A DNA stretch of 64,000 nt from Nymphaea colorata (lineage: Eukaryota > Streptophyta > Magnoliopsida > Nymphaeales > Nymphaeaceae): assembly GCF_008831285.2 (NCBI RefSeq), contig NC_045146.1:20847289-20911288 (forward strand). Direction: 5' to 3'. A program made the position numbers and the translations under genes. The notes beneath the pieces are model-generated. The model saw nothing but the letters and a program-made list of their open reading frames with translations, ran no database searches and was not told where the DNA came from. Positions 5,555 through 29,812 of this stretch are shown here, in pieces (position 1 is the stretch's first letter; each line of letters starts with the position of its first letter).

Positions 5555-5965
5555 TCATCTGTGAGCCGTGATCAGAGTCTCGATGAAGCGCAGGCCGTCG
5601 AACCTCGGTGCGAACTTATCGGCGGCCAGATTCCTCTGTGACGCCGAAGAAGAGCCATTTCCGCCGGACAGCGCCTGAAAAACGGGGGAAAAGTAAGACA
5701 CATGCCGGAAATCTCAATAACCAGGAGAGGCGAAAAAACAAACGTCGATCTCCCTCCGTGAAACGAAACAACAACGGGATCTTACCTCGTCCGAGGGCTT
5801 CAGAAGGCGGATCTGATGATCGTCCGAGGAGGTGAAGGCCGCGGACGACGCGGCAACAGCAGAGGCAAAGAAGATGCCGGACCTCTTCATCTCCCTCGCC
5901 ACGGAAATCACGGACAAGAAAGAGCTATAACCCAGGAACGAACGAGAGGATACGGAAGACGGCAC
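5555..5965 (-). CDS. Small two-exon protein with C-terminal FDGLRFIETL motif
   Basis: Spliced on the minus strand from exon 1 (5965-5786, 60 codons) and exon 2 (5674-5555, 39 codons plus TGA), giving 99 aa. The donor reads GACGAG|GTAAGA and the acceptor TTTTTCAG|GCG, and the phase is 0. The N-terminal half is Ser/Ala-rich and hydrophobic (FFASAVAASSAAF at about 32-44), which could be an organelle-targeting segment or membrane anchor. An in-frame Met at residue 26 is an alternative start. The C-terminus, DKFAPRFDGLRFIETLITAHR read without its first residue, carries the same core as the genes at 10.8, 26.6 and 29.5 kb (APEFDG-NCFETLV-H), with the same two-exon layout and phase. I recognise this as a plant-type small protein of unknown function. 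A TATA box at 6025-6032 and a G-box at 6195-6200 lie upstream. The intact frame and canonical splice sites argue that it is functional. Confidence 0.85.
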
Positions 5966-6024
5966 TCAGTCCTGACGCCCCTTCCCAGACGATCTCACAT
6001 CCCCTTCTTCCGCGTGTTCCCCTC

Positions 6025-6032
6025 TTTTTATA
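6025..6032 (-). promoter_or_regulatory. TATA box of the small gene at 5.6-6.0 kb
   Basis: The minus strand reads cgcgTATAAAAAgagg, about 60 bases upstream of the ATG at 5965, which is a suitable spacing for a plant TATA box with a short leader. Confidence 0.65.
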
Positions 6033-6194
6033 CGCGTTCCGGGTTTCAAAATTAACGAAACTTAAATCTCCCGTTAGATTCCGCCACCCCGTAGACTTGC
6101 ACCTGCCACGTAGGCCGATCTGACGCCGCGTCACGAACGGTGGACCCTTCCCAGAATCTCTCAAGACTCCAAGGGCACTTGGCCTTCTAGCTAC

Positions 6195-6200
6195 CACGTG
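6195..6200 (-). promoter_or_regulatory. G-box (CACGTG) upstream of the small gene
   Basis: A palindromic CACGTG in the context ctaCCACGTGGCag, about 165 bases upstream of the TATA box. A second ACGT core (gccACGTagg) lies at 6108-6111. G-boxes bind bZIP and bHLH factors and are common in ABA- and light-responsive plant promoters. A stress or light response for this gene is inference. Confidence 0.5.
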
Positions 6201-6419
6201 GCAGTCATCGAGTGACTCGGCCTCGCCTTTCGGTGACCATCCGACCACCCCACTTTTTTGGTGGGCGAATTTCTTTTTCTTCCCACTGGCGCGTCGACGC
6301 GTGGTGCGTTGGACAAGTGGTAAAAGAAATGATGCGTGGCCATCACGCAGAAGCTTACGATCTATATATATATATTTTAATTTTATATATAAACTGATAC
6401 TCACGGCCGGCCAGGAAAA

Positions 6420-8660
6420 AAAGAAAAAGAAAAAAAGAAAAAGAATTTAAGATTATGGTTTTGGGGCGGAGATTGTTTGTCTCGGTGTCCCGCCAGGCTC
6501 CACATCACCACTTTCTTTGGCGCAGGAGCAACGGGGTCCCAATATCAAGAGAAGGTGTGCTGATGCTTCTTGGGACAGCGACAGCCTATGGAGGATGAAG
6601 AAAAAGTCGGGTCAAACACCATTGATCCTCCATTCTGGGTCACAGCTGACCTACCAGAGCAACCGCGAAAGCCTTTGTTACTAATTAGGAATGTTTAAAG
6701 TCATATCTAAATCCAAACCGGAAATATGATTTCACAATTGGAATCCGAATTTATTTTTAAAATACAAGGGCATTAGATGTATGACATGACATTTATTTGA
6801 CCCTAAATCTGATCTGTTTGTCATATTCTATTTTTTCAGAACAGATTAGCAAGATATTAGATCCAAATCCAATATGTTGACATGCTTATGACAGTGAAAA
6901 TGATTGTTACTTGGTGGCTCGACTCGACATAAAAGGCAATTCAAATCAATCTTGGATAGCAGACCTAAGGCATTCAGGGACAACTAAGCGTCTTAGGTTA
7001 CTTGCATCAGCTGCAATTAATCACATCCTTTACTCATTTGATTTGATGTTTTAAACATTTGTCTGGTCACACTTTGGTTACTTTTCATTAGTCTCGCCGC
7101 CCCTTTTACTTGAACATTCTACGCCATCTCCATTTATCCAACGCGTGGAACTCTTACAAAGTGCTTGATTACTTGAAATTTTAAATCTATGAATGTGATG
7201 GGACTAAAGATTACAGGTAAGGCTTAAGATTCCCATTTTACTGTTCAGATTGACAAAAGATATAATCCAGCATTAAGGAGCGAAGGGTCTGATCTTAGTT
7301 TTTTTTTTTTTATCTTAGATTCGCAAAGCTCAGACCATGAGGATTTTTTTTTTATCTTAGGGTAAATTGACAAACGTATACAAAATATCTGTTACTATTG
7401 CCCCAAATGAGTTGGTAAACTAAACTTCCAGGATTTGGGGTCTGCAACTTGCCCTCTCACCATCAACAAATGGGGCGGGAGCCGGACGTGACGGCGAAAG
7501 CAAGGCATGCACCGCCGTAGAACATGGAGTAAGCGGACGTTTCCCGATCAGCCCTATAAAGAAAGAATTGATTAGCCGTGGAAGACGTCACGAAAAGGCT
7601 TATTGTGCCCATCCCAACCGCATGAATGGCAGTATGTGGCCCTTAAACTTATCTCCTCCATAGTGGCGTTGTGCGCCTCTGCAACGCACCACAGCTACTG
7701 TTCTGTCATTTAATTATTCCAAACCACCTCTGGTTCTGGTTCTGGTTCTGGTTCTGGGGCGCATCTATCGCTTGACATGACTCCCAATCTCTAAAAAGCA
7801 AACCCACAGTGGTCGTGTTGTCAGCATCCAAATGTCCAGCGATTGTTTGAATGGAGGAAAATCCTTTCCTTTTTCACAATATCTTTTGTCTATCTCTCCG
7901 TAGCACTCCTCGCATTTTGTTCGGCGAAATACATTGACAGCTCCAATATAATTTAAAGGCATGTATGTTCGTACCGCATTCTTTGGCATCTTGTTGTCGT
8001 GTAGCTTCCTCACTCCATCATCTCTTCCTTTTTCAGTTGGATTAAAAAGGAAACCGAGAGAAAGATTGAATCCGTAACTTCGACCACTGTCATTTTCATC
8101 ATCCACCGTTAGATTTGGTAGATGTTGGATTGGAGGACAGGTCAAGACTTCTTCTTGTTAATATGTTATATCAGTAAGCAAACCGGTAAACTATGAGCAC
8201 ATAACTATCAGAAACAGTCGTTTCACTAACAAAGAGATCGAGCAAGTCAGCAAAGAATTATACTAAGTCATCCAGAAAATGGAGCAGTTTCGAAGCAATT
8301 CCGCATCTCTTCCAGTCTTCCGTGATTGACTCGATCTCATAGAATTGGCAAGACTTGGCTATCCATCCATTGAGGAATTGAGATACTTCAATCCCCCACA
8401 TTAAATTTTCAAATCTAATAAGCGAAGAAAGTAGGGCCAAACCAAGAACTGCGGGTCCAACCAACAGCTAACGTACGTTTGGGAACAGCAAGACCCAATA
8501 ATGCGATCGACCATGGATCCACCCAGAGATGAGTTTGCCACAGTTGGCTCAGGCCCACACAGAACGTTTCAAATCGAGAGAGACGGAGGGAGAAAAGAGA
8601 GTCTGTAATTGCTTTTGCTTTTGCATTGAGGACATAAGCATCTCTACAGACGCAATCAAT
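6420..8660. other. Intergenic region, one unexplained open frame
   Basis: No recognisable gene. A 126-codon open frame on the minus strand (8145-7765) has no motif I know and no visible splice or promoter context, so I do not call it. Poly-T runs lie near 7300 and 7345. The rest is AT-rich unique sequence. Confidence 0.45.
7731..7758. repeat. (GGTTCT)n hexanucleotide repeat
   Basis: More than four tandem copies of tctggt/ggttct, perfect over about 28 bases, in non-coding DNA. Confidence 0.85.
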
Positions 8661-8671
8661 GACATCAAGCA

Positions 8672-9097
8672 TCAAACAAGAAAAAGAAACGCGATAAACA
8701 ATGACAACACGAAGAGAAGAGCATGTCCAACTGGTACAGCTACAGGTGATGAGGATCCAGAAGAGTAAAAGAAGTAATAGGGATAAGGGTAAATGGTCGA
8801 CTGAGACGGTGGCGGTGGGGGTGACGATGGAGTGTGATGGTGACCGCCACTAGGGGGAGGTGGTGGTGGAGGTTCCGTTGCAGGGTTGGTGGGTGGAGGA
8901 GCGGCCATGGAAGGGACGGATGGCGGTGGTGGGGCGCATATGACAGGGCAGGTGCCGCACTTGGTTATGCACTGTTGCTGGCCGTAGGAAGAAGAAGGAT
9001 CCACCAGAACGGGAGGAACATCGTCGGCGGTCGTCGCCACCGCTGCCAAGCATGCCCACAAAGCCACCAACACTAAATTCCAGTTTACATCTTCCAT
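8672..9097 (-). CDS. Proline-rich, probably GPI-anchored cell-wall glycoprotein
   Basis: A single-exon frame of 141 aa starting at the ATG at 9097. Residues 1-24 form a signal peptide (hydrophobic VLVALWACLAAVATTA). A short Cys cluster, CITKCGTCPVIC, spans residues 43-54. Residues 55-98 are Pro-rich with blocks of up to seven prolines (PPPPS, PPPPPPP, SPPPPP), the type of sequence hydroxylated and O-glycosylated in extensin and arabinogalactan-like proteins. A Tyr/Pro stretch (IYPYPYYFFYSSG) at 102-114 follows. The last 17 residues are hydrophobic, preceded by small residues (SSGSSS), which fits a GPI-anchor signal. The likely role is a plasma-membrane or wall-associated structural glycoprotein. 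The leader holds a CT/GA tract (9149-9166) and a minus-strand TATAAAAA lies at 9378-9385. I infer function from composition only. Confidence 0.8.
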   Translation of the reverse strand: MEDVNWNLVLVALWACLAAVATTADDVPPVLVDPSSSYGQQQCITKCGTCPVICAPPPPSVPSMAAPPPTNPATEPPPPPPPSGGHHHTPSSPPPPPSQSTIYPYPYYFFYSSGSSSPVAVPVGHALLFVLSLFIAFLFLV

Positions 9098-9099
9098 GC

Positions 9100-10560
9100 T
9101 CCACGACGTTTACGCATTCCTCTGCTTCCTCTCGCTCTCTGTTTCTATCTCTCTCTCTCTCTCTCTGTGCGTGTGTGTGCTATAAAATGAGTTCTCATGG
9201 CTTGAATCGACGGAGAGAATAGCAGAGTGAGTTTACTTTTGGGGTGTAAAGTGGGATGCTTTTAAGAGATTCCTCCTCCATTACAGCTCAAGGAATCGAT
9301 CAACAGCTAATGAGGAAGAGATTGGAGAGCGAGAAAAACCATGTTCAATACCAAAACCTGAAGGCAAAAACGGGTCCTTTTTATACGCTAGAAGCCTCTG
9401 TTCATTTTCCAGTTCGAAAAGGAACTGGAAGGGGATCGAGACGCTGTTGAAGGGCTCTTTAATGCTGCTTTCAAGGAAGGCAACTCTTGAGAACCTCATC
9501 TTCCCTTTGCATTTCTTCCACGCAAAGGAAAAACAAGAGACGCACTCCCCTTCATCCACCTTTTTTTTTTTTTTTTGGGGGAATATCAGGCTTTTGCCGC
9601 CCCTCCTTTATACCATTCCACTTTCATACACAAGTCTTAAAAAATGGCCTCTGCACATTCAGCAGACACGATGCCCGTCATCAAACCAATAATATTAGAA
9701 GTTTCCATTTCTTCATTTTCTGGAGCTTTTGAAAGGAAATTTGGAGTGTTACACCTATTCGGCTGCAAATCAAACTGAACTACCGTTGTCATCCGCGTGC
9801 TTTATATATGCAAGAGAGCTTACGCTGAGTCGCTGACTCCTGGATTGTATTCTTTCGGTTGCCTATGTGGACCGAATCGCCGTTGAAAAATCAATCAGAG
9901 CACATACTGACACTAGAACTTTCATAGGTCAATTTTAAGTGCTCGGACTTCTTTGACTAAGTCAAATCGATTTGGTCAGGAGGCCATTCCCTCCACCAAT
10001 TCCGTGCTCTCTCTCTCTCTCTCTCTAGAATATATATATATGTTACTTATTTGAGGGAAGCCTGATCTTAATCCTACCTCATCTTCAACTGCCTTCATAC
10101 TTATCAAAATAGTTAAAAAACGAAGGATGGCATATTAATTAAGGCCACAACTTCCCGGCCCGTCATTTTATATCATAAATAATTCCACACACGCCAAGGG
10201 GAGAGCATGTCGTAGAAGCATCGTGCAATTATTTACGTAATGGAAAGTTGGAGTGGGCCAACAAAATTACTTACAGCCACTTGAACGTGTCGGCTTCCTT
10301 TGACCCGAAGGTTGAGGGAGCTTTCCACCTTCGTAGAAAAAAGAATTCCAGATGAATGAATATACGCCAGGCCTTGCACACCCTTGAGGATCCGTGGAGA
10401 AGTGGCTTTTGATTCGCGATTAGCCAAGTCCCAAACGGTTCGGAAATCGATCAGAAACCCAACCCGAACCGTAAAAAGGTCTGGAGACCGTAGACTACCC
10501 TCGATGCTTCACGGCAATTCGAGACGAAAAGAAAACGAGGGAGGGAAGCGATAGGAAAGA
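9100..10560. other. Intergenic region between wall-protein gene and small-gene array
   Basis: No gene supported. It contains a poly-T run (9562-9577), a (CT)n run at about 10,009-10,026 followed by a short TA run, and several short open frames without recognisable motifs. Confidence 0.5.
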
Positions 10561-10622
10561 ATCCGTTAGGCGGTCTAACGACCACCCAGTCGGGTCGCCT
10601 TCTTCCCCCTTTCCCGACCCTC

Positions 10623-10630
10623 TATAAATA
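10623..10630 (+). promoter_or_regulatory. TATA box of the small gene at 10,758
   Basis: tcTATAAATAtc, 135 bases upstream of the ATG, followed by a pyrimidine-rich leader. Just upstream lies the element that unit B also keeps, gtctaacnaccacccagtc. Confidence 0.7.
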
Positions 10631-10757
10631 TCACCTTTCCTCCCTCTGCTCTCCCCATCAATAAAGTTCACTCACCGATCACAGAGATTCCTCTTCATCT
10701 CGCTGAAGCTTTCTTTTGCTTTCCGTCTCCACCTTTTTTTCTCTTTTCGGGTTCGTC

Positions 10758-11102
10758 ATGGCCGCCGGCGCTTACTTCTCTTCTCTTTCTGATGCCGCGT
10801 CGGCTATCAGCTCTTACTTCGGCGGGAACCACGGCACCGCAGCCGAGGTGAGTCTTTGCCTCCAATCCTCGTCTTCCTCCTCATTCTTCTTCTTCCTTTC
10901 CGCTTTTATTTGTTGTTCTTGGTTTTAAATGGTGTTTATATTATGCAATTGTTGACAGGGTGGGAGCAGCAATAGGTCCGACGGCGTCTCACGGTACCCC
11001 AAGGCGGAGGCCGCCAAGAGGCCGAAGCCAGCGGTGGAGCGACCCAGATTGGCACCAGAATTTGACGGGCTCAATTGTTTCGAAACGCTGGTCTCTCATT
11101 GA
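10758..11102 (+). CDS. Small two-exon protein, APEFDGLNCFETLVSH type (array member 1)
   Basis: Exon 1 is 10758-10847 (exactly 90 bases, 30 codons) with donor GCCGAG|GTGAGT. Exon 2 is 10959-11102 with acceptor TTGACAG|GGT and ends in TGA. The product is 77 aa. Exon 1 encodes a Ser/Ala/Tyr-rich segment starting MAAGAYFSSLSDAAS. Exon 2 begins with a Gly/Ser and Lys/Arg-rich linker (KAEAAKRPKPAVERPR) and ends in LAPEFDGLNCFETLVSH. The start is fixed by the Kozak-like gtcATGGCC, the TATA box and conservation of the exon length in the members at 26.6 and 29.5 kb. No known domain is visible. The basic linker followed by a conserved acidic/aromatic tail suggests a short interaction motif, which is inference. 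It is the intact parent-like member of unit A. Confidence 0.87.
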
Positions 11103-12340
11103 TCCGATTTACCTTCGGCTTGGTTTTTAGTGGGGAAAGCCTCATGTGGGAGGGCAAAATTCTTTGATTGTTATACCAATCTGTAAATACTTTCCTTATT
11201 CTTGATTAGTAGTGAATGTTATCAATTACCCATTTCCGGCGTTGTCTCCTTTGTTTACGAGGGCGATCACGCGAATTTTCTGTCTCTTCAGTTATCACCG
11301 CTTTGCTTGCTTTCAAGAAAGTCAAATGCGCTTCGTTTCAAGCTTGCCTTTTGGTGGATTTACGGTCATATCGTTTCTTTTTCCTCAAGAAACACATCTA
11401 CTCTGCGATTCGGCGCGTCGGTGTCGTATCTTAATCCACTTTGTCTTGGAGCCTTCGATGTCAGCTTTCTTCTTGTTCTTTCGGTCCCCTGTAACCTAAG
11501 TTGGAGAGAAGAGGGAAAACAACCGTATATTTTAATTGATGAAGCTCGGTTAGCTTCTGTTAACCGCACGCAACGGAAAACTTCAGTCTGGTTTCAGCGA
11601 TTTCAGGCCGAATACTTGCCTGGCTGTCCGGACGATGCCGGTCCAGCCATTTCTCAGGCTGGCTACTGGGCCGAAGATGATTAAAAAAGAAAAATAAAAA
11701 AGAATTTGTTTCCTTTTAGTGTTTTGCATATTCTGCCCTGTTTTGCGATCACCGACTAAGTAGAGGAGAGTTGTGGTCACCACTCTAATATAGGTGGCCG
11801 TGCTGCACCAATCTCCGGCTGTATATGGCCGGAAAAGAAAACATTAATGAATATATATTTAAAAATTGGTGGTCACCTTCCCGCCATCCAGCCGGATATT
11901 GGTGCAGCGAGGTCCACTGCTCTTCAGTTAGTCCGTCGGTGGTCTTAAGGTGCGACACAACATGCAAAATGCTAAAAAACAAAATGCCGAACTGCCCTTC
12001 AGTTTCACATTAAAGTAAGTTTTGTTTGTGTGCGGTTAATTGAAATTCTCTCTATCTCGAAACGGCGGACAGACTAACGTAGAAAGACGCGGCTCCGACA
12101 TATTCCCTCGTCTCCAACTATTAAGGTTATAGGGGACCCAAAAAACAAGAAAAGGTAAACCACATAGAAAGCATAAGACAAAGTGGATTAAAATAACTCA
12201 AAATGATCAAAACAAGGCAAGCACAGAGTTGCTGAATATATGGGTTTCTTGCAGAAAAAACCACCTAAAGAGGAACAAAAGATTTATTGGGTGGAGAAAG
12301 GAAACAAAAGATTCTTGCCCTTGGAAATAAAGGAGGCACC
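11103..12340. other. 3' flank of array member 1, shared between units
   Basis: The first ~200 bases after the stop (to about 11,300) are also present in the inverted intronless copies, so they probably include the 3'UTR. The frame at 11,202-11,684 has no recognisable motif and is not conserved as protein in unit B. The segment near 11,800-11,890 (accaatctccggctg, atggccgg) recurs at 18,995-19,035. No separate gene is supported. Confidence 0.5.
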
Positions 12341-12344
12341 ACCT

Positions 12345-12720
12345 GGAAATCGGTAATGGATCACATTAACTACTGTTACTCAAGAACAAAGAAAGTATTT
12401 ACAGGTTCGCATAACACTCGAAAAGGATTTTCCCATCCCACAAGCTATAACGAGGCTAAACCAAGCCGAAGGTGAATCAGATCAAAGCGAGACTAGTGTT
12501 TCAGAGCAAGTCAGTCAATCGAACTCCAGTTCGGAACTTGGCCGCCATTCCGCCGGCATCGGTCTCTTGCTCAGCTCTACCGTTTTGGTTCTACACCCCA
12601 CCGTTGGACCTCTCTGTCAAATCGCTGCACCCACCCTCGATTGCACTGTGGTGGCTTCCGCCAAAGTAAAGATAATAGTTGATACAACTTTAGAAAGAGA
12701 AGTAAGCACCGACGGGCATG
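12345..12720 (-). pseudogene. Intronless inverted copy of the small gene (unit A)
   Basis: On the minus strand the sequence follows the spliced form of member 1. An exon 1-like stretch (ggtgcttacttctctttc near 12,710) runs straight into the exon 2-like stretch at ATCGAG/GGTGGGTGCAGC with no intron. It then passes stops where the motif should be and continues into sequence matching the 3' flank of the parent (ctgtaaatactttctttgttcttga). The ATG is shifted, stop codons and indels interrupt the frame, and the APEFDGLNCFETLV motif is destroyed. The exact absence of the intron and inclusion of the 3' flank point to a processed copy. The copy in unit B shares its unusual deletion (ctctttcnaaagttgtatca), so this was copied once and then duplicated with the unit. 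Confidence 0.75.
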
Positions 12721-14487
12721 AGCAACCGAACAGAGCATACTACCACCTCTCATTTTTAAAGTTTCCTGCCTCAACCAGAATAAAAAGCTCCTCTCTCTCT
12801 CTTTATGATGTCCTCCAACCATCTTCATCACCGTCCAATCACAACAACCCGAAGAGGCTCAAGGAACTTGGATGGAGACATCTAGAAATCTATATCATAT
12901 ATATATACATGCGTGTGTGGGGCAAGTCTGCAAGAGGTTATGGTACTGCTGGTTTGGTTAACTGGTTACCGTAGAAGCAAAATTAGCTCCTGGCCGGCCG
13001 TTTGTTCATAGGAACGATTAACTTATGAGCTAAGCGTCAGTAATAACATCGACAACTCTGGAGTTTGGGGTAAAAGTTGCATAAAGTAAAGTACCTGAAG
13101 GTTGCTTGTGACTTCCCGCGCCAGCTAAGGTATGAACCAACTACTACAACTACTGAATCTCACAAGTGCAAATGGAATTAGAGTTTTTCATTGCAACGGC
13201 ACTAATTTTTGAGGTAATTTTTTTTTTTCAGAATCCAAAATCGTTTCAAATTAAAATTATAATGTGAAAAAATGACTTTCGAAACACAACTTTTCAAACT
13301 ATCAGGCGTTGTTACTGACTAACTTAAATAACATTTCAAATTACACTTTGAAGGACAATAAAACCATAGAGTGCTATTATATAGGATATTTCAAGATCTT
13401 TAAATTTATAAAATCCAATTTACGACATAGATTGGTTAGGCAGCATCAAATCATCACGACAACAGAACAATCTCGTCACCACCACTTTTACTCTCAATCA
13501 CTTGGAAAGAGAAATTGGAGGTGGGAGCTTATGAAAGTTTTAAGTATATATCAAGTATCACAAAATCAAACTTCCCTTGTTACTACATAAATTCATGGAA
13601 ACAGTACATGGACTCACATCAAATATACACATGGCCATGGGTAAAATCAGGTGCAAAACAATAGAATAACCTGCATGGCATATCACTGGCCCATTCAGAC
13701 TCATCCAAGTGGAACGGCAACCCCTTGCACCTTCCCCATGCGATGAGAGTTTATGCTACCCTGCTCCGTAAGCAGTTCAGACTATACACGATCTGACCAG
13801 ATTTTGCATTAATCATTCTTAACATTCATGTTTAATTCAAATGTTTTAGCATGTTTTCCATGTACAAATCCATATTTTGAACCATTTACAACACAAGATA
13901 TGTATTTTTTTAAAGCACATCAGATCCAAATCCAATTACATTCACAAGTGCTGACGATAAATTTCTAAACATATTGATCCCATGTTGAAATTCTCTGGAA
14001 GTCATTAAATATGTATTTTCGTAAACAATTGGATCCATTTCAAAATCCATTTACAAATGAGTCCATATCTATTTTACAAAGGGATGACCATGTATCAGAA
14101 CCTCTAGACATAGGATATTTGATGACTGAGGGGTTAGGCCTCCCCAACATGTGCGTGGCAACATAACGTGGTATGTTATGTCGTGTTCTCAAACATTATT
14201 GCTTTCAATATCTATATGCTGTTTATTTTATTATCGTCGGCGTTGGATTGATTGGAGCATTAAAAATACATGTAGGAAAAGATCATACGCAGATAATGAA
14301 ATTTTATACATTCGTGTGGAGAGACAACTTGTACTACCTTATGTTCCAAGTTTGGAACTTAAGTGTTCGACCAAACATTCTCACGCGTGGAAGGTTAAAT
14401 TTTTTATCAATCAATGGGGAGGACAAGGGGACAGGTCGTGGGACAAAGAAATGTGGCTATTGTGTCACGACCCAAGTTTTGACACGA

Positions 14488-14488
14488 G

Positions 14489-14526: not shown

Positions 14527-15635
14527 CGGAAGCAACATGAGTCTTACTCCAAACAAACTTGAGCAATGACCAAAACAGAAAACAAATCAAACGTCAATCA
14601 AACATCCATCATTGTTTTGGAAGACACCCTCCTTGACTCCACAAAACATTTAGACTCAAACAACTAAAGTATTCACAAATCTCAGGCTCGACGCAGTGTC
14701 CAGGTTGCCAATGCCAGCCCATCACAAAGTTTGAGGACGTCAATCACTCAAGAACTTCATGTAAAGATAGAAAGAAGGGTCAAATTTCCTCCGAATATAT
14801 AAATATCTAGCTATGTATGAAACATGGTTCGACAAAGTAAGTATATAATCATGTCACACAAAAGTCATATGAAGTCCTTATGGTCAACATTTATAAGTTT
14901 TCAATTTGATAATGCACCTTAGAGTTACATGTTTTTATCTTGGACAAACATGACTTTCAAATATTCACTTTCAACGGTGTTTTATCATAACAATGATCAT
15001 GGTCATCGTGTCGAGGAAATAACAGAAAACCCTGTAGGCACAACTAACAGGTAGCACAAAACATATCTTCACCAGGTGATCCAACTGATCAATGGTATCT
15101 GTAGTGAAACCTCTTAAGATATCCCAGATCGCCACTGCAGCAGCATGGTCCAACCACCGGTGTTACCCAAAGTAGTAGACCGGCCCCTCTAGGCACTCGG
15201 GTTGAGGGACCAGGAGACGCTTTGCTCTCCAACCAAAAGCATAACAAAATTCTAGGCCCTTGTGCCGCCCAATACCCTATGGGCCATCCAGTGTAGACGG
15301 AGAAGTGTGTAACTGCAGTAAGCTCGTGCGCACCCCTACCTCCTGGAACGGAACCAACCACTAGACCAAAACCCATACTCGAACTCGCATGTACCATTGC
15401 ATAAAACATAGTCCACGTTTCATCTATGCATTCAAATGTGGGGTTTTACCGTTATTATGTATAGTTTTGTAACTCCCACAAAAGCCAACCTTAGGCTACA
15501 AATACTCTGAATTTTGGTTGGAGGGACCCCAAGGGACTTAGGATCAAATCCCAAACCTGCCCACCAGTTGAATTTGACGAGGGTAGGCACATGAGACAAC
15601 TGTTCTGTCGTCGGTTCTTTAGTCGTCACAGAAAG

Positions 15636-16210
15636 CACTCCAGTGATAGGTGGTCATTCAAAAATCCATATCTCTTCATTGGCTCTTCCAAAAATTATGA
15701 AATTTTACAAGGATAATCTTCAGAAGCAGATGAATCCAACGAGCTCTTATTCGATATTTTCCGACACCGGAGCTGACAGCGCCGGTCACCAAAATTTGGT
15801 TCAGTTTCTGGTTTTACAAGGAAGCATTCCAGCGATAGGCAGTCACTCAAAAATTTGTATCTCCTCAACCACTTACCCAAAAATTATGAAATTTTACAGG
15901 AGTAATCTTCAGAAGCAGACAAATCCAACGAGTCCTTACCTGACATTTTCCAACACCGGAGCTGACAGCGCCGGTCTCCGGAATTCGACATACTCTTCAG
16001 ATTTTCCGTCACAGAATGCACTCCAGCGACAGACATTCCTTCAAAAATCAATATCTTTTCATCGGCTGCTGCAAAAATTATGAAATTTTATAGGCAGAAT
16101 CTTCAGAAGTAGACAAATCCAAGAGGCCTACTCGACATTTTCCGACAGCGGAGCTAACAGATCCGGTTGCCATTCCAACATAATTTTCAGATTTCACAGA
16201 TACTATAAAA
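15636..16210. repeat. Three-unit tandem repeat, ~190-bp period
   Basis: Three diverged direct copies start at about 15,636, 15,825 and 16,019 with 'cactccagcgata'. Each contains 'aaaattatgaaattttaca', a 'cttcagaagcagacaaatcc' block and 'ttccgacaccggagctgac'. The period is 189-194 bases. No coding function is evident. It may be a fragment of a larger dispersed repeat or a short satellite array. Confidence 0.85.
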
Positions 16211-16795: not shown

Positions 16796-18219
16796 CCTTT
16801 TTCTGACTCTAAGATTGAATTCTTCTTTTCCACCAGTTCAGGTGCTACCAAAGGTGGTTTGCAAAACTCGATTGCATCATGTTAACCTTTACATAATCTT
16901 TCTGTGTTCATCTGCAAAGCCTTTTCTCTAGGGTTCACGTGGATAGAGATGATTGCTTGTTCACCTTTGCAGCCGATAATCAGCATGTTACTGCAGATTT
17001 ATATCATGCATATAACTAATGTACAAGTTACAACAGATTTATATAATATATATATAAGCATAACTATTTATAAGTATACACCGTAACTCTATACACACAC
17101 AAGCATTCCAATATATAGATGCATATATACGCAGATCATCATAGGAACAAGAGGTTCCCCTGCTGAATTTACAATTAAGCCTCCAGCTGAATTTACAATT
17201 AAGCGCCACATGCTACAGAAAATATCAGTCTACGCATTTCTGGAATTTAGATATCATCATGTCACATCACCCGTTCATTCATCATCTATCATACGGCTGA
17301 TCATACAACATGCTTCCTCAATAAATCTAATTTTATTCTAAATTTCAGAAGCAATTCCATAATCATATTCATCCTTTCATTTTAATGTAACACATCTAAC
17401 AATTTCAGTCTAACTTTTTACTCTAGGCCTATCCATGTACACATTACATATTTACTATTATATATCCATATTCCATAGGCATAAAATACATGAACTACAT
17501 GCTGCATACACGTCTGAACATCCCCATACCTATCAAGTCTGAAACGAGGTTCCGTCAGCAGCCTTCTATGCCTCTTGCTTCTCTCAAGCAGCCCCAAACC
17601 GCGATCTCCACCAGAAAGAGGGTAGAAATGAAGTCCAATCTCTCTATCTCTCAACTTCGAGAGCAGCAAAAGAATGCTTATTTGCTGCAAGACATGATTC
17701 CCAAAACTGCCATACGAAATGACCTTTCAGTTTTCTTTTCCCTTCCTTTTAATATTTTGAGTTAGTAACTCATTTATTTCTTTTTATAACGACAACTAAA
17801 TTGACAGTTTGAATTATATTTAACAATCATTTAAATTAAATCTACTGTTTATAATTCCTTTCTATATTAACGTTTTCAATAATGAAAGAAGGAAAGTAAA
17901 TCGTGGGCCTTACATTGAGCACGGTTTGCATGAGCTCCTTTTCTCGACTTGCCAAGTTTAAACAACCAGAGTTCGACGCTGAGCTGTCATAGATTAAGAT
18001 GACGATCTAAGGGAACGAAGCCGTTGCAGTCTGATCGAGGCGGTCTAACTACCACCCAGTCAGTTACGCCTTCCCAACCATTATAACTTCTCCGATCACA
18101 GAGTTTCCTCTGCTCGCTGAAGCTTCATTTCTTTTCCCTCTTCGCTTTCCTTCTCCACTTCTTTTTCTTCATCTTGTTTCGGCCTCCTTCCTTTGGCTTC
18201 CGAGATCAGACTATTCTCC

Positions 18220-18572
18220 GTTCTTCTTGGCCGTCGATGCTTGCTTCTCTTCTCTTTCTGAAGCCGCGGCGGCTAGAGCTCTTACTTCAGCGGGAACCAG
18301 CGAACCGCAGCCGAGATGAGTCTTTCCCTCTGATCCTCCTCCTCCTTATTCTCCTTCTTGTCGGCTTTTCCTTTTTGTCTTGGTTCGAAATTGTGTTCAT
18401 ATTTTTGCAGTTGTTGCAGGTTGGGAGCAGTGATATGGCGCAGGGGTCCGACGGCGAGCTGCAGAACCTGAAGGCGGAGGCCGCTAAGAGGCCAAGGCTG
18501 GCGGTGGGGAGACCCAGATTCTCCCCAGAGTTTGACGGGCTTGATTGTTTAGAAGCAGTTGCCTCTCATTAA
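18220..18572 (+). pseudogene. Damaged small gene with retained-intron reading frame (array member 2)
   Basis: Aligns over both exons and the intron with member 1. The ancestral start ATGGCC is TTGGCC here, and the donor GTGAGT reads ATGAGT, so the original start and splice site are both lost. A new ATG at 18,237 in another frame gives an uninterrupted 111-codon frame that runs through the former intron and re-enters the exon 2 frame, ending in RPRFSPEFDGLDCLEAVASH. The former intron contributes a strongly hydrophobic stretch (LILLLLILLLVGFSF and following), which would form a membrane segment if translated. The motif is changed at key places (NCFETLV to DCLEAVA). It is most simply a pseudogene, though an expressed altered protein cannot be excluded from sequence. 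Confidence 0.7.
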
Positions 18573-20125
18573 TTTGGTTCACCTTTCTATTGGTTTTTTG
18601 ATGGGGATGCCTCATTATAGCATTGAAATGAACAAATGTTGATTGATATATGAACCTGTAAATGCTTTTCTTGTTCTTGAGATTTGCAAGTGGTGTCTTC
18701 CTTGTTTCTGAGGACGATCATAATCTTCTGTTTCTTTACTTGAGATTCATTTTCTTGAAAGTCAAATGAGTGGTTAGTCCTTCATTTTTCTTCTGTGCAT
18801 ATCTTGATTTTATTTCATTTTGATATCTAATCGATCCGGCTCCAGCCGTTTCTCGCCTGGCTACTCCGCCAAAGATGATGATAAAGAATGTGTTTCTTTT
18901 TAGTGTTTTGCATATCGTGTCCCGTTTTCGGACCACCTACTAATTGAAGAGGGGCGTTCTGGTCACCACCATGATATAGGTGATCTTGCTGTACCAATCT
19001 CCGGCTGTTAGATGGCCGGAAATGGCCACCAATTTTTAAATTCATATTTATAAATGATTTCTCTCAAGTTTTGTGAGTTGAAAAAAGTGGAAAAAGCCAG
19101 GTCACAGAGAAAAAACCTGGCTAATTTTAGTTTTATGTATCAAGAGTCCAAATGAAGTGCTGGAATGAATTTGCAATTAGTTTGACAAAAGTCATTAGGA
19201 TCGATCTAGTTTTGATGGTTTAAATCGAAACAAATTGGGCTAATTTTTATTTTTATACCAAGAGCTCAAATGAATTTACAATTAGGTTGACATAAATACA
19301 CCTGCATATATGGGTAGTCATTAAGGATAACACAGGATAAGTGCAGATGGTCAATTTGGTTCCAACTTCGAATCAATTGGGCCATAAACATATCAAATGC
19401 ATAAAAAGGAAAGCACTTGGAGCTCTGCTAGCTTTTTGGTCGTCTTTTTCCGGCTGTCTATAAGACGGAAATTGGTGCAGCAAAGTCACCTGTCCTACAG
19501 TGTTAGAATGCGACACGGCATGAAGCCGCGAGAAGCCACGGTTCATCCCACCACAAGTAATAGTTAAAAAAGCAGATTGAACTGGCCTTCGATTCCACAT
19601 TTCAGTTTCACGTTGAAGTAAGTTTTGTGTTGTTCGCGGTTAAGAGAAGTTTCCTCGTCCACGAAAACAGGCAAAAAGACTAACCAAGAAAGACGCGGCC
19701 CCAGAGAGTTAGTCCATTGTTTTCACTAATTTCCAACTTAGGTAATTAGGAGAAAAAAAACTAGAAAAACCGCCTATTGGGTGGATGCTTAGATTAGAGA
19801 GCAGAAAGCACAAGACAAAGTGGATTTAGCTACCCCCAAAATGGGATCAATGCGATTTAACTGAATATATGGGTTTCTTGCATGAAAAAGAAAGACATGA
19901 CTAGAAAACCACCTAGAGGCAAGCGTAAAACATAGGTGTATTTGAATTTCTTGAAAGCATGAAAATGAGTCGCGAATAAAGAGGCATAAAATTCATATGA
20001 TTAACCTTAGAAACAAAGAATACACCGTCTGGAAATCAGTAGTTGATCACATCAACTACTACTTAAGAACAAGAAAAGTATTTACAGGTTCATATATCAT
20101 TCAAAGAATCTATCCATTTCAGAAG

Positions 20126-20428
20126 CTATAATGAGGTTTTCCCCCAGAAGAAATTAAGCGGAAGGTGAACCAGATCGATGGAGACAAGTGTTTCAAAGCA
20201 ATTAAGGCCATCAAATTCTGGTGCGAATCTGGGCCTCTCGACCACGGGCTTTCGCCTCTCGGCTCCCTCTGCCTTCAGGTTCTGCGGCACACGCCGTTGG
20301 ACCCCTCTGCCAAATTGCGTCTCCCACACTCGGTTGCTGCCATGGTTCCTGCTGAAGTAAGAGACAATAGCTGATACAACTTTGGAAAGAGATGTAAGCA
20401 CTGGCGGCCATGACGATCTGTAATACAT
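20126..20428 (-). pseudogene. Intronless inverted copy of the small gene (unit B)
   Basis: On the minus strand an exon 1-like sequence starting at gtcATGGCCGCCAGTGC (ATG at 20,412-20,410) runs directly into an exon 2-like sequence at CAACCGAG/TGTGGGAG with the intron cleanly missing. The ancestral frame is broken by a deletion after ISF. An overlapping ATG at 20,428 opens an alternative 100-codon frame that ends up in the correct frame for the conserved tail, RPRFAPEFDGLNCFETLVS, but the normal stop is lost and the frame runs on into the former 3' flank. It faces member 2, about 1.6 kb away, in the opposite orientation. I call it a retrocopy-like pseudogene with an unusually well kept motif. 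Translation from the alternative ATG is possible. Confidence 0.72.
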
Positions 20429-23389: not shown

Positions 23390-23790
23390 CGAACTCCGAC
23401 AGTCCGACTTGAATCTCGGCTGCTCCTTTGCCGGTATCGGTGTCTTCGTGCCTCCACCTTTGGGTTCTACATCCCGACGTTGCACCTGTCTGTCGGATCG
23501 CTGCACCCATGCTACTACTGAAGTTAGTTGATCACATTAACTACTACTACTGAAGAACAAAGAAAGTATTTGCAAGTTCATATATCAATCAAAGAGTTGG
23601 TCCTTCCCAGAAGCTATAATGAGGCTTGCCCCATAAGAATCCAAGCCGAAGGTGAATTGGATAAATGGGTGACTGGTGTTTCGAAGCAATTCAACCCTTC
23701 CAATTCTGGCGCGAGTCTTTGCCACTCTCCGCCGGCATTGATATATTGGTGGCCTTTGCCGTTGGGTTCTCACTTATTATGCTTTTTTCT
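23390..23790 (-). pseudogene. Two partial intronless copies of the small gene in tandem
   Basis: On the minus strand, 23,790-23,655 encodes APELEGLNCFETPVTH, a slightly altered family tail, and continues through the family 3' flank (gcaaatactttctttgttctt, ttaatgtgatcaac) to about 23,525. There it joins abruptly to a second partial copy, 23,520-23,390, that starts inside the exon 2-like linker (gggtgcagcgatccgacag) and loses the motif. Neither part has an intact start. This is the condensed third unit of the array. Confidence 0.62.
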
Positions 23791-23919: not shown

Positions 23920-24110
23920 CTTCGGCTTCTTTCCTTTTGCCTCCAAAATTACGCTACTCTCGGTTCTTCATGGCCATCGGCACTTACTTCGAAACACTTG
24001 TCTTTTATTGATCTGGTTCGAAACACTTGTTTGCACCAGAGTTAGATGGATTTAGTTGCTTCGAAACACTTGTCTTTCATTGATCTGGTTCACCTTCAGC
24101 TTGATTTCTT
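23920..24110 (+). pseudogene. Rearranged small-gene copy with two tail motifs
   Basis: The leader matches that of member 2 (cggcttctttccttttgcctcc, compare 18,181). At 23,970 an ATG opens MAIGTYFETLVFY and stops at 24,011. The first seven codons match exon 1 of member 1 and the last six are the family tail, so almost the whole gene between is deleted. Immediately after, at 24,033-24,083, a second tail reads APELDGFSCFETLVFH and stops. The join lies at a short repeat (ttcgaaacacttg occurs three times here), consistent with a deletion or duplication at microhomology. No full-length product is possible. Confidence 0.65.
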
Positions 24111-24114
24111 GTGG

Positions 24115-25030
24115 GGGAAAGCTTCAATGTAGCTTTTGGGATGAAAATGCGTCGCAACTAATGTGACAAAAGAATGGTATGATCGCCCTTAGAAACAAGG
24201 GAGACACAACTTGGAAATGGGTAATCGATCACATTAACTTCTACTGAGATTTACAGGTTCATATGAAAATCAAAGAATTTTTTCATCCCACAAGTTACAA
24301 TGAGGTTTTCCCCACAAAAAACCAACGGGAGGTGAACATGATCAACCAATGTTTCAAAGCAGTTGAGCATGTCTACATTCCGGCGTTTGTGGTAAAAGAT
24401 GCCTAAACTAAAGTAACTGAAGGCCGCTTGCGACTTCCTGAATCAGCTAAGGTATGGTCAAACTAAAACTACTGAAGCTGACAACCGCAAATGGAATTAG
24501 AGTTTTTCATAGCCTTCGTTCTAGTTTCTGAAATTCCAACACCACAGAGCGACAGAGAGTATTTATCCGTTTCCTGATTAGCACTTGGAGCGCTTGGAGG
24601 AAAGAAAAAGAAAAATAAACGTACATGTACAAGAATCTCTAGACATAGGGTAATTGATGTTTGATGACCGAGTGGTTGGGCTTCCACAACATGTGCATGG
24701 AGGCAACATAATGTGGCATGTTATGTCGTGTTGCCAAACATTATTGTGTTCAATTTCTATATGTTGCTTATTTTATTGTCTCCGCGTTGGATTGATTGTA
24801 GCATTAAAAATACATGTAGGAAAGATCATACGCAGTTAATGAAATTTTATACGATCCAAGTTTGGCACTCATGTGTGCGACCGGACAAAAAACTGAAAGT
24901 TTTATCAATCATGGGGAGGATAAGGTGACGCGTTGGACTTGCCTCATTTGAACGTCGGAGAGAGAAAACAGGCAGCCATGGCTTCAGAAGCAGGTAATTT
25001 TGATCTTTGATCTCTGCATTTTTGTCAATG

Positions 25031-25066
<36 letters not shown>

Positions 25067-25190
25067 ATATATATATATATATATAAAACATTACCCTTTC
25101 CCAGTTGATGACCAATTCGGCCGAATGGACAGCCAAGCCGATTGAACACATTTTCTCCTTGATTTTGATGACAGTAACGCTTGAAAATGA
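24115..25190. other. Condensed end of the third unit
   Basis: 24,180-24,350 matches the 3' flank block of units A and B, 24,365-24,510 matches 13,050-13,180, and 24,640-24,950 matches 14,105-14,420. At 24,978 an ATG opens MASEA followed by G|GTAATT, which looks like a small first exon, but no continuation is recognised and unit B has ATG-GCA-TAA at the same place (21,923). Confidence 0.5.
25034..25084. repeat. Compound (CT)n(TA)n microsatellite
   Basis: About 14 CT units followed by about 10 TA units. Confidence 0.93.
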
Positions 25191-26496
25191 AGGATCGAGA
25201 TCAATCTCAGATCTAAGTTCTTAAGATCGTTGTTCTCAACATATCTAAGATTTGTAACCAGTATGCAAACACTCCTTAAACCATTCTTAATCACAAAAGA
25301 CTTGAGTCCGCGGGTGCCAACCAAGTGGATGAAGCTCTTCAATTTACTTTCCTCTCCGTTATTCCCCTTCGCCGTCTCCTGGCCGCCAAACCAACCCTTC
25401 CTAACAAACTCAGCCTATCAATTCAAGGATCTACACGATACAAAGGCATTGCCAGATTCCCAAATTTTGGTGGAAACAAAATCCTCACGACAACCATGCT
25501 CACCCGCTAATCATGCAGTTACCCAAAAAAGCTAACCCTGTCCCTCCATTATACCTACCCCTCGAGGGTACCCTAGTTTTCGTGTTCTACTCACTTTAGC
25601 TTTGTTATCTCAAGTCTCTACAATTCATGCATGTTATTTGGATGCCCATAATGCCCTCATCCCTGCCGACCCCAAGGATTTGCTCGAGGATCCAGCCGGA
25701 ATTCGATAGTAGATGAGATGTAGTTAATAAGAAAGTAGAGGGACTTATCACCTTCTTTAAGAAACATCTTTGGCCTCCCCAGCTTTTCCAAGATATTGCT
25801 GTAGTTGTCATGCATTTCTGGTTAGAATTCTTGAAGACCTTTTGCTTCCACTTTTTGAAATGAGAGGCATGCAGATGTAACCTTCCTCGTCACCAAGGTG
25901 TAAGGTATGGTAGACATGTGAAGCCCTTTCCCAGTGTATTCAGACCAAGTTCTACCTGGGAAAGTTTCTAATAGTCCTCAACTATAATGTAGATATTTTC
26001 TAAAATCTCAAGGAAAAAAATGTAGATATTTTGTCAAACGCGATATGTAATTTTTCGTTTTTGAGCCTACCTTTTTCTCATAATTCAAAAAAAAAAAAGG
26101 TGCTAATTTATGAGATTTTCTCAGTAAGGGCCACATTTTTCATGGAAACTAACAATTGGGGATCTGATATGTACTAAAAATTAAGTCCAAATCTAAATCT
26201 AAGTCCATCTCCTGTGAAGGAAAATCTAATTAGATCGAATGCACCTAAACAGTGGATATGATCCGAGTCGGTACTGCTATTTTTTGCTAGTTATAACAGC
26301 TCGCTGGGCTAAACGGGTCAGCTACCTAAACCATTCAACACCCCAACTCCAAAAAAAAAAGATCACGCTAAGGACGGAAAGATCATTTCAGCAAGCACCG
26401 TGTTGGTCACAACCATGGTTGAGAGTCCGGGAAAAGAAAACGTGGTAGAATTTCTCTCAGTCTTGAAGGGTACTTTGGACATTAGGGCTGGCCGGT

Positions 26497-26504
26497 TATT
26501 TATT
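26497..26504 (+). promoter_or_regulatory. TATA-like element of array member 3
   Basis: TATTTATT in the context ggccggtTATTTATTgaagcgc, 147 bases before the ATG. The same element in the same context lies 146 bases before the ATG of member 4. Confidence 0.5.
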
Positions 26505-26643
26505 GAAGCGCACCCCTCTCGGAAAATCAGAGCAAGAACTGGTGAAAGGGAGAGAAGATCCAGGCCAGCTCCCCCCTGTTATCCATATCCCCGACTCTCT
26601 AGATTTCCCGGGACGGAATTTCATCCCAGTTTCCGAGCAAGCC

Positions 26644-27003
26644 ATGGCGAGCATGACGTCCGTCGTCACGGCGTCCATCGCGGCCGCGGCCGTCGGCTCG
26701 GCTCTCCTCACTCAGCAGCCTACGAAAGACAAGGTTCGCGTTTGATTTCTGGACCTTTCGTGCTTCCGTTTCCTTTCCTCAGTGCTCGTTTTTTTGTGAA
26801 TTGGTGTCTCTAACGGGCTCCTTTTCCGTTTCCTTTTTCTCTCCTTTCTCTTGTCGGTGACTCAGGCTTTGGCTGTCAAAGAGCATCAGACGAGGGTGAA
26901 CGAAGAGGAGGCAGCCGGGTTGGAGAAAAACAGGGAATTGCAGCCGAAGATTGCACCGGAATTCGACGGTGTGAATTGCTTCGAGACGCTCGTTGTCCAT
27001 TGA
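26644..27003 (+). CDS. Small two-exon protein, APEFDGVNCFETLVVH type (array member 3)
   Basis: Exon 1 is 26644-26733 (90 bases, 30 codons, as in member 1) with donor GACAAG|GTTCGC. Exon 2 is 26866-27003 with acceptor GTGACTCAG|GCT and TGA. The product is 75 aa. Exon 1 encodes an Ala/Val-rich hydrophobic segment (VVTASIAAAAVGSALL), a possible membrane anchor or targeting peptide. Exon 2 encodes a charged, helix-prone linker (KEHQTRVNEEEAAGLEKN) and the conserved tail IAPEFDGVNCFETLVVH. The start lies in a good context (gccATGGCG), is preceded by a TATA-like element, and is shared with member 4. The function is unknown. The N-terminal exon is unrelated in sequence to that of member 1 while length, phase and tail are kept. 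Confidence 0.87.
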
Positions 27004-27009
27004 CCATTG

Positions 27010-28970
27010 CCGCTGAGCAGCCGCAGCCAGCTTTCTTTCTTTCTTTCTGGTTTCGATTTGGTGGGTTCTGTGTAAATATGATGCTAATGTCTGTTGGCAA
27101 TATATTTTGAGATCTTTAGCTTAATATTTGAAGTTTGAGGCACCCTCTTGTCAGGAAAGAGAGAGGCTTACAGTTTCTAACTTTCTCCAAATATTGATTT
27201 CTCTAATCAGAACGAGGAAAATCAACAAGTGCACCTTAAGGATTTCTCTCCTACCCTGTCTTCCCTGTATGCGAGAGATGAGATCCCAACAGGGAATTTT
27301 GTGAACCGACGATGAGCAAATCAGATATTGAACACTTAAAAAGTTGGTAACTAAATAAAGAAGTTTCACCTAAACCGTACCAAGTTCTCTAATTTTGTAA
27401 ACGTTAACATTGTGGAAAAGGGAAGAAAGTTTGAAGAATCAAGGAGAGAATTCATTTAATGCAAGTTGAGAAGTTGGCCTAAAAACTTCCGTCATCTCCA
27501 CGGAGTTGTTTCCAAAATAGCCCATTTGTTTCGCTTTTAGACATATCTAACATTGTTTTTGCCATGATGAGGGTCACGGGAGCCCGTTTCTCCTACCTAA
27601 TTTCAGTTGCCTCCGCTTCAAAACCTTCACTCTTTTCTTGATTCAAGTTAAACGTTAAACATTTACTTGGATTGTTGCCGATCAATATAAAATATGGGAC
27701 GCAAAACGGATTTCGGTTTTGGATCAGATATAGCTATCAATGCAACTAAACGACCGGATTGGATATTTGGGAATCCATCCTAAATAATCCGGCATAATAT
27801 TTGTTTGCCACTGGCGAACAAGTGGATTATTTAACAAAGAAAAAAAGAAAAGAATATCCCGTTTCCTGTGGTTGTGATGATCATGCAAACTCGTTACAAT
27901 TCAGATTTAGAACCAAAAGAACATGTCAATACGTCGGTATGTGGGAAAATATCGGCAACGGCAATGTTTGACCATTCTATAGTTTCTTGAAAAGTATATG
28001 TAGCTGCATTTCAGTTTACGTAAATAACAGATCGATGGTGTATATGCAAAAGTCACGTTTATCATGGTCTTAAAGCTCCGCCTTACACTTGTTGGTGAAA
28101 GGTACCCATCATGTATATCACGTCACTCATGTATATGGACCACGCCTTGTTTAGAGAAACCCAGTTTAAGTATGTGATCTAGTGTATATCACGTCACTCC
28201 ATATAAGAAAAGATAAATATAAAGTAATATATCACGACATTAGTGGACATTTGGTTATCCAGCTTCCTAGACTCAAGGGCATATATTATTCAAGATGAGG
28301 CTCACCTTTTAACACTATGGTCTCAGATTCCATAGCTTTGTTACGCAAGGATTACAGATCCATGATGTAACATTTTATGCATCTTTCAAACAAAAAATTT
28401 TCCGTCTTTGTTAAAAATCAAGGATTTTAAATCTGGAGATTCTAAAATCTCAAGTCACTTCAAATTTTAGACTTGGGGCAATCGAGAATCCCCTTAATGC
28501 TTTGAAGTCTAAACTTGGCCTGGCCTCCACGCCCATCACGGGCAGTCTTAGAGGGAGAATGAGGTAGGGGGGGGGAAGTAACATTTCAGTAGCCATAGAT
28601 TCTCGAGTTAATGAAGGAGAAACACATGCATCCACGTGATCACCAACTTAATGTTCCCTGCTTTTATACTAAGAAGTTGCATCGCACCCATGATATACGA
28701 GTTATTCAAAAGATTACATTTTATGTAAAGCTATGTCTCTTATTGGTACATCATTGGAACGGACCACAGAATAAAACTATGGCTTGTGCTTTTTCATTGT
28801 GAACCCGTGATTGTTATTTATCAAACAAGATCTTACTGTCAAACACGATCTTATCAGGTTAAGGATGTTCAGGTGGAGACTTTGGATCGAGTACTCTCGA
28901 CTCTGTCAACCTATCCTCTGCTTGCCTGTAATGGTAAAATTCAAATGGAGCATGCTGAGTCCTTAACATG
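27010..28970. other. 3' flank of member 3
   Basis: No gene supported. It includes a probable 3'UTR (tgtaaatatgatgctaatg near 27,070) and a stretch shared with copy 2. The frames at 28,450-28,971 are short and not conserved as protein between the copies. Confidence 0.5.
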
Positions 28971-29318
28971 ATACTTCTCCTCATATCTATGATTGGTAAT
29001 CAATGCAAACACTCCTTAAACCTTTCTTATTAACAAAAGACTCGAGTCCACGCTGCCAGACAAGTGGAAGGAGATCTTAACATTGATAAATTTACTCTGG
29101 TCTCCGTTATTCTCATAGCCCCTAAACCGCCCCTCCGCGGTCTCCTGGCGGCCAAGCCAACCCTCCGGCACTCACGACAACCATGCTCACACCGCAAATC
29201 GTGCCTCCTTTTAGTTACGCAAAAGGCTAACCCTGTCCTTCCACTATACCTACCACTCGAGGGTAACCTACGTTTGCCGCAGTTTTGTAGGGTATATTGG
29301 ACATTACGACTGGCCAGC

Positions 29319-29326
29319 TATTTATT
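29319..29326 (+). promoter_or_regulatory. TATA-like element of array member 4
   Basis: TATTTATT in ggccagcTATTTATTgaagcgc, 146 bases upstream of the ATG at 29465, matching the element of member 3. Confidence 0.5.
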
Positions 29327-29464
29327 GAAGCGCTCCCCTCTCAGCAAGAAGCCAAGAATTGGTGAAAGAAATGAGCGTGGAGGGAAGATCCAGGCCAGCT
29401 CCCCTGTTATCCATATCCCCGACTCTCTAGATTTCCCGGTTCGCCTCCAATTTTCCGAGAAGCC

Positions 29465-29812
29465 ATGGCGAGCATGACGCCCGTCGTCACGGCTTCCATG
29501 GCGGCCGCGGCCGTCGGCTCGGCTCTCCTCACTCATCAGCCTGCGAAGGACAAGGTTCGCGTTTGGTTTCTGGCCCTTTCGTGCTTCCGTTTCTTTTCCT
29601 CGTGTTCATTTTTGTGTATTGGTGTCTCTGACGGGCTCCTTTTCCGTGTCCTTTTTCTCTCGTCGGTGACTCAGTTTTTGGCTATCAAAGAGCATCAGAG
29701 GAGGGTGAACGAAGAGGAGGCGGCGGTGGTGGAGAAAAAGAGGGAATTGCAACCGATGATTGCACCGGAATTCGACGGTGTGAATTGCTTTGAGACCCTC
29801 GTTGTCCATTGA
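29465..29812 (+). CDS. Small two-exon protein, APEFDGVNCFETLVVH type (array member 4)
   Basis: Exon 1 is 29465-29554 (90 bases) with the same unusual donor AAG|GTTCGC as member 3. Exon 2 is 29675-29812 with acceptor GTGACTCAG|TTT. The product is 75 aa. It differs from member 3 at about 11 residues, mostly in the linker and at codons 6, 12, 24 and 27, while the tail IAPEFDGVNCFETLVVH is identical apart from silent changes. The frame, splice sites and stop are intact, so both tandem copies look functional. The intron is slightly shorter (120 against 132 bases). Confidence 0.87.
   Translation: MASMTPVVTASMAAAAVGSALLTHQPAKDKVRVWFLALSCFRFFSSCSFLCIGVSDGLLFRVLFLSSVTQFLAIKEHQRRVNEEEAAVVEKKRELQPMIAPEFDGVNCFETLVVH

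Follow-up and report, generated by a model that had tools for sequence, protein, structure and literature searches.

Small plant proteins that lack a domain model are hard to annotate. In CLE-like precursors of secreted peptides, an apolar N-terminal segment and a variable middle are followed by a conserved C-terminal block, and VQ-motif proteins are likewise small and variable outside their motif. That motif, in plants, is short and conserved and interacts with WRKY factors, as described in PMC5052590 and PMC10573558; the plant-specific SDA family (SMALL DEFENSE-ASSOCIATED PROTEIN 1, Arabidopsis At1g19020) has members of 77-86 amino acids (aa) with one short conserved motif that is needed according to point mutants, as reported in PMC7283558. 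Here we describe a family of small two-exon genes in a 64,000-nucleotide stretch of the Nymphaea colorata genome (positions 20847289-20911288 of contig NC_045146.1, termed C9 here; the whole stretch is "the window" below), whose products share a C-terminal block. These genes form an orphan plant family of two subfamilies, encoding two-exon proteins of 74-77 aa, and with a probability of roughly one half we read the proteins as small adaptors that would dock onto a partner through a C-terminal amphipathic helix. Presumably, its members are annotated as "uncharacterised" in many plants.

Results

A family of two-exon genes in two subfamilies

Four intact two-exon genes, A on the minus strand and B, C and D on the plus strand, were rebuilt from the sequence, and all four have GT-AG introns, in phase 0 as the initial annotation had it:

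5786..5890, minus strand: gene A exon 1, MKRSGIFFASAVAASSAAFTSSDDHQIRLLKPSDE, donor GTAAGA; the paralogue on contig C10 has an equal exon structure
5555..5674, minus strand: gene A exon 2, tail KFAPRFDGLRFIETLITAHR plus stop, with a helix predicted over the tail
10758..10847, plus strand: gene B exon 1, donor GTGAGT; intron confirmed through intronless copies
10959..11102, plus strand: gene B exon 2, tail APEFDGLNCFETLVSH plus stop
26644..26733, plus strand: gene C exon 1, donor GTTCGC
26866..27003, plus strand: gene C exon 2, tail APEFDGVNCFETLVVH
29465..29554, plus strand: gene D exon 1, donor GTTCGC; the adjoining intron is open in frame
29675..29812, plus strand: gene D exon 2, tail APEFDGVNCFETLVVH

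The products are 74 (A), 77 (B), 75 (C) and 75 aa (D) long, which replaces an earlier range of 75-99 aa: the 99-aa form of A requires a GTG start at 5965, whereas the C10 paralogue, like gene A read from its ATG at 5890, begins MKRSG. The tail first described as common to all four genes, APEFDG(L/V)NCFETLV.H, fits three of them: APEFDG(L/V)NCFETLV(S/V)H closes the proteins of B, C and D, but gene A carries APRFDGLRFIETLITAHR instead, identical to the B block at 9 of 16 positions, and is assigned to a second subfamily, apart from B, C and D. Across six distinct proteins (A, B, C, D, and the A-type paralogues A10 and A11 on contigs C10 and C11), the block can be written A-P-x-[FL]-D-G-[LV]-x-x-[FIV]-E-T-L-[VI], with seven invariant columns (A, P, D, G, E, T and L); in all six, Ala, Ser, Gly and Thr make up 58-62% of the first 24 residues.

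A profile of the A type (A, A10, A11) gave B, C and D scores that were reached in 1, 0 and 0 of 2000 shuffles each, and the B-type profile gave A, A10 and A11 scores reached in none of 2000 shuffles each. Chance similarity of the two types is ruled out by these profile-versus-shuffle tests, which indicate that A-type and B-type proteins are homologous via the tail. Genes C and D, with introns 93% identical and flanks 90-91% identical, are marked by these identities as a recent tandem duplicate, and so are not independent of each other. The intron of gene D is open and in frame and, if retained, would yield a 115-residue protein with the same tail (29465-29812, plus strand); that of gene C, unlike that of gene D, contains stops.

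The genome (408 Mb, 783 contigs) was searched with the 25-aa tail of B, the full C protein, the A tail, and the full-length C10 and C11 members; because these searches score the best candidates only, distant members can have been missed, and some decayed copies in the window are unlisted. The B tail gave seven matches and the C protein six, every one inside the window. For the A family, there are homologues outside the locus: the A tail matched gene A, a copy at C9:20828124, C10:13211654 and C11:1633944. The C9 copy, 25 kb away, encodes a protein identical to A at 74/74 residues and sits within a duplicated segment of about 8 kb that is 90-96% identical piecewise (coding exons 224/225, intron 108/111, 5' flank 520/555 and 3' flank 586/595 identical). 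The members on C10 and C11 have diverged from A and retain the layout of the window genes, two exons with a phase-0 intron, and a 30-kb piece around the C10 paralogue matches the window and the preceding 27 kb only at the gene itself. Full-length C11 and C10 queries returned no further credible members genome-wide, their single extra match, on contig C6, having an E of 3.2 and two stops. For gene A, the copy on C9 and the paralogue on C10, candidate ACGTGKC sites of the abscisic acid (ABA)-response type lie at most about 310 nt upstream of the ATG; others lie at -891 (C11 member) and -473 (B), whereas C and D have none closer than 900 nt.

Among the seven proteins scanned against Pfam-A, none matched at or above the curated score (best sub-threshold match, S_layer_C to C at 11.7 bits, cut-off 23.9), and PDB held no sequence relatives at E up to 10. 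Pattern matches to the family numbered 18 in viral contigs and 30 in 84,980 prokaryotic genomes, none of them confirmed at the sensitivity of these searches, and Rfam gave nothing on the window at gathering score. We found no relevant paper printing the motif letters (five-letter strings, judged by title on part of the matches), and descriptive terms returned nothing relevant as judged by title.

Selection on the tail and the N-terminal block

Substitutions, counted by the Nei-Gojobori method, are unevenly spread along the A-type proteins. Between A and A10, residues 1-24 differ by six synonymous and no nonsynonymous changes, such that the protein is identical there, residues 25-54 by 12 synonymous and 17 nonsynonymous changes, and residues 55-74 by five synonymous and three nonsynonymous changes; for nonsynonymous changes, the two end blocks differ from the middle at a one-sided Fisher p = 1.8e-5. 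In the 16 codons of the tail, there are nine synonymous and three nonsynonymous changes between B and C, and 11 and three between B and D, a synonymous excess that upholds the earlier claim of a constrained tail. Between C and D, the tail has two synonymous and no nonsynonymous changes and the remainder five and 12 (p = 0.039). These counts indicate that purifying selection acts on the tail between live paralogues.

That the rest of the protein differs around the tail, as first proposed, is wrong for the A family, in view of the unchanged first 24 residues. The A subfamily instead has two constrained blocks, N-terminal and tail, and a freer linker, and an N-terminal block as fixed as the tail speaks for a small protein that functions as a whole, with both of its ends at work. 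It is extremely improbable that the genes form a non-functional, decaying cluster with a tail common only through recent duplication: six B copies are indeed broken, truncated or altered and C and D are recent duplicates, but the tails of A/A10 and of B/C show synonymous excess and paralogues are dispersed on C10 and C11.

Predicted structure, hydropathy and motif patterns

AlphaFold, run on exon 2 of A only with a six-row alignment, predicts a helix at residues 27-38 (GLRFIETLITAH), directly after the invariant D, and a second helix at residues 14-21 within a low-confidence stretch (predicted local distance difference test, pLDDT, mean 67; last two blocks 79 and 85). Shuffled sequences reach the helical hydrophobic moment (100 degrees) of the tail in just 1.6% of cases for A and 1.3% for B. 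The shared tail is thus probably helical; with an alignment this shallow and A alone folded, the helix is support and not proof. The docking peptide suggested by the initial annotation is compatible with the helix on the A tail and the high moments of A and B, with the amendment that the tail is not the sole constrained part.

Short-motif patterns were applied to the last 22 residues of the six proteins, and those for EAR, DLNxxP, PP1, PTS1, H/KDEL, KEN, PxIxIT, PDZ, LxxIxE, TOS, eIF4E-type and CaaX motifs matched in none of the six. A loose export-signal pattern matches five of six (not B), at places that differ between the two subfamilies, and thus does not account for the conservation; RxxL is confined to B. 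The pattern [WFY]xx[LIV], which is the core of the ATG8-interacting motif (AIM), is found in five of the six tails with an acidic residue within, and either FDG[LV] or FETL could provide it. However, the core is missing from the last 22 residues of A11, where LDGL replaces FDGL, and an AIM core is shorter than the conserved block; because of the LDGL in A11, a role in binding ATG8 is very improbable. A C-terminal degron recognised by an E3 ligase would suit a block that lies at the very C-terminal end of so small a protein, but the final residues vary by subfamily (SH, VVH, TAHR) around a fixed inner core, an intronless copy of B described below adds 17 residues beyond an unchanged tail, and nothing found favours a degron in particular, leaving this explanation with hardly any probability.

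At the N-terminus, the best 19-residue hydropathy means are 1.75 (C), 1.57 (D), 1.16 (A) and 0.73 (B), and the 12-residue maxima, which reflect hydropathy alone without a signal-peptide predictor, are 1.74 (A), 2.02 (C), 1.80 (D) and 0.75 (B). The block is thus weakly apolar in A, C and D and less so in B, such that a targeting role common to all of them is no more than putative. Two alternatives to a docking adaptor draw on this segment. In the first, the proteins would be small membrane or organelle proteins, with the Ala/Ser-rich N-terminus serving to target or anchor them and the tail a permanent structural part of a multi-subunit complex rather than a reversible docking site. The values for C and D, the basic residues ahead of 19 uncharged residues in A, and the exact conservation of A residues 1-24, which suits a packed segment, speak for it; the low means of A and B, an acid residue inside the B segment, and the lack of a match to any known subunit in Pfam above cut-off or in PDB speak against it, and we regard it as unlikely. 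In the second, each protein would be a secreted precursor of the CLE type, made up of a signal peptide, a pro-region free to vary, and a mature peptide conserved at the C-terminus. The layout of apolar segment, variable linker and conserved block agrees with this, and the A11 N-terminus is signal-peptide-like by eye, but that of B is weakly hydrophobic and that of A is frozen, whereas signal peptides usually evolve fast. The tail, moreover, is apolar and predicted to be helical, unlike any plant peptide hormone known to us, and a secreted precursor is on this evidence quite improbable.

Intronless and broken copies of gene B

The window also contains six decayed, truncated or altered relatives of B, in keeping with the earlier count of at least five, although the first of those below keeps an open frame and may not have decayed:

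20416-19979 (homology), minus strand: intronless B copy, with an open 100-codon frame at 20126..20428 and tail APEFDGLNCFETLVS unchanged
12317..12735, minus strand: intronless (processed-type) B copy, broken; stop within the tail, frame breaks
18089..18680, plus strand: B copy with intron, broken; exon 1 has an altered start codon and a 1-nt deletion, and the donor GT is mutated
23525..23767, minus strand: B-type fragment, exon 2 and 3' flank
23962..24126, plus strand: B-type fragment, a 29-nt piece of the exon 1 start, plus tail
24156..24383, minus strand: B-type fragment, tail end and 3' flank

In the intronless copies (12.7-12.3 kb and 20.4-20.0 kb), the B intron is absent precisely at its ends, and two copies lacking it exactly at the splice junction imply that B-type mRNA was spliced in the past. 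Both have one 5-nt deletion of exon 1 in common, and their BLAST homology to B reaches from 17 nt upstream of the ATG to 162 nt beyond the stop in the 12-kb copy, and from 5 nt upstream to 301 nt beyond in the 20-kb copy. No poly(A) or target-site duplication was seen by eye (20-kb copy only). The intronless copies sit in repeated segments (12.3-14.4, 20.0-22.0 and 23.5-25.0 kb), and the simplest course would be that a single B-type mRNA was reverse-transcribed and the product then multiplied by segmental duplication. The copy at 18 kb, which has the intron and matches B piecewise over 10568 to 12259, is an ordinary duplicate.

The tail of the 20-kb copy is intact up to LVS and is followed by 17 other residues; the position of the B start codon is out of frame, and another ATG would serve. 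Its 15 tail codons differ from B by no nonsynonymous and eight synonymous changes. Taking half of the divergence from B as neutral, and using either 3' flanks or synonymous sites as yardstick, 5.2 nonsynonymous changes are expected from the flanks (Poisson P = 0.0055) and 25.6 from synonymous sites; a codon simulation gave P = 0.012, 0.094 and 0.39 if half, a quarter or a tenth of the divergence was neutral. Correction for its being the best of five copies tested raises the flank-based P to about 0.03-0.06; a frame break within the tail kept the 12-kb copy out of the counts. The 20-kb copy (20428-20126, minus strand) could still be alive or could have been lost recently.

The four broken copies that were counted have six (18 kb), five (23.6 kb), four (24.0 kb) and four (24.3 kb) nonsynonymous tail differences from B. 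The 3' flanks, 16-23% different, lead one to expect 4.9, 5.2, 3.5 and 3.3, respectively, which is about neutral. With the synonymous yardstick, the observed numbers are far lower than expected at 23.6 kb (5 versus 18.8) and 24.0 kb (4 versus 33.4), not significantly low at 18 kb (6 versus 9.5, P = 0.16), and saturated at 24.3 kb. Tail ratios of nonsynonymous to synonymous differences (pN/pS) are 0.16-0.36 in these four copies versus 0.08-0.10 in the live pairs B/C and B/D, indicating that the broken copies have lost some constraint, and several of them may have worked for a time before dying. The tails at 18, 20, 23.6 and 24 kb differ from B by 0.45-0.84 synonymous changes per site, and the 3' flanks by just 16-25% (B region 10975-11289).

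Surroundings

Elsewhere in the window are tandem pyruvate dehydrogenase E1 alpha-like frames at 35298-36227 and 41369-42202 (both minus strand; Pfam E1_dh, 3.7e-72 and 3e-72), with domains near-identical by eye, and pieces of a Subtilase (Peptidase_S8) in differing frames at 56413-57137 (minus strand), of which 56688-57137 is under the Pfam cut-off. The frame at 53718-54134 (minus strand) is subtilase-like by eye and has no Pfam match, and an LSM protein reading frame also neighbours the family. The pyruvate dehydrogenase, subtilase and LSM frames, like the introns, are in character for a plant. At 15630-16179 (plus strand) a unit of about 190 nt is present in three tandem copies, the second and third 81% and 61% identical to the first, and at 8672-9109 (minus strand) there is a proline-rich open frame with apolar ends, by eye of the glycosylphosphatidylinositol (GPI)-anchored extensin type, without a Pfam match.

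Discussion

If the proteins are small docking adaptors, the C-terminal block would fold as a short amphipathic helix, with the invariant D that precedes G as its N-cap. The hydrophobic face of this helix ([LV], [FIV], L, [VI]) would insert into a groove on the partner, itself a conserved protein. The Ala/Ser-rich N-terminal block would set location or give a second contact, with the linker as a tether. The cluster itself would have grown by tandem duplication, retroposition and segmental duplication, most B copies being lost later. Both the adaptor role and the groove-binding helix are inferred, in part from a structural model.

Several observations weigh against this proposal. The synonymous rate per site between A and A10 is higher in the middle (0.52) than at the ends (0.33-0.34), so part of the contrast between ends and middle may be one of rate, and few codons stand behind each substitution count. 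The structural model comes from six alignment rows and has a mean pLDDT of 67, and the hydrophobic moment is weaker for A10 and C, being reached by 8.4% and 6.5% of shuffles. When exon 1 alone is compared between A-type and B-type proteins, 51-481 of 2000 shuffles reach the score, so that no homology is recognisable between their N-terminal blocks; the case for homology of the subfamilies comes from the tail, with the shared intron phase and comparable exon lengths in support. Finally, the broken copies serve as a neutral control with 3' flanks and fail as one with synonymous sites. This weakens the control and leaves the odds of a docking adaptor unchanged, because that proposal rests on the live paralogues.

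More tentatively, and with greater doubt, we suggest that A-P-x-[FL]-D-G-[LV]-x-x-[FIV]-E-T-L-[VI] could be a new short helical docking motif in plants with its own receptor, and that the 20-kb copy could be a live intronless retrogene in which the tail has become internal, with a new 17-residue extension after it. Were there such a receptor, other tail-bearing proteins could be found through it. Selection marks two working ends, and the tail is short enough to be synthesised as a peptide with which to fish for a partner, making the function of an orphan family testable.

Compared with CLE-like precursors, the family has the same succession (apolar N-terminus, variable linker, conserved block at the C-terminus), but the first of these is weakly apolar in B and frozen in A, and the tail is predicted to be helical. 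The SDA motif, (S/G)WA(D/E)QWD, is N-terminal (PMC7283558), whereas A, A10, A11, B, C and D contain no tryptophan. VQ-motif proteins are set apart by their FxxhVQxhTG signature, as no VQ dipeptide occurs in the six proteins here, and the motif of the present family is C-terminal and its genes have an intron; what the two would have in common is a short conserved motif for contact with a partner, a contact that in this family we propose.

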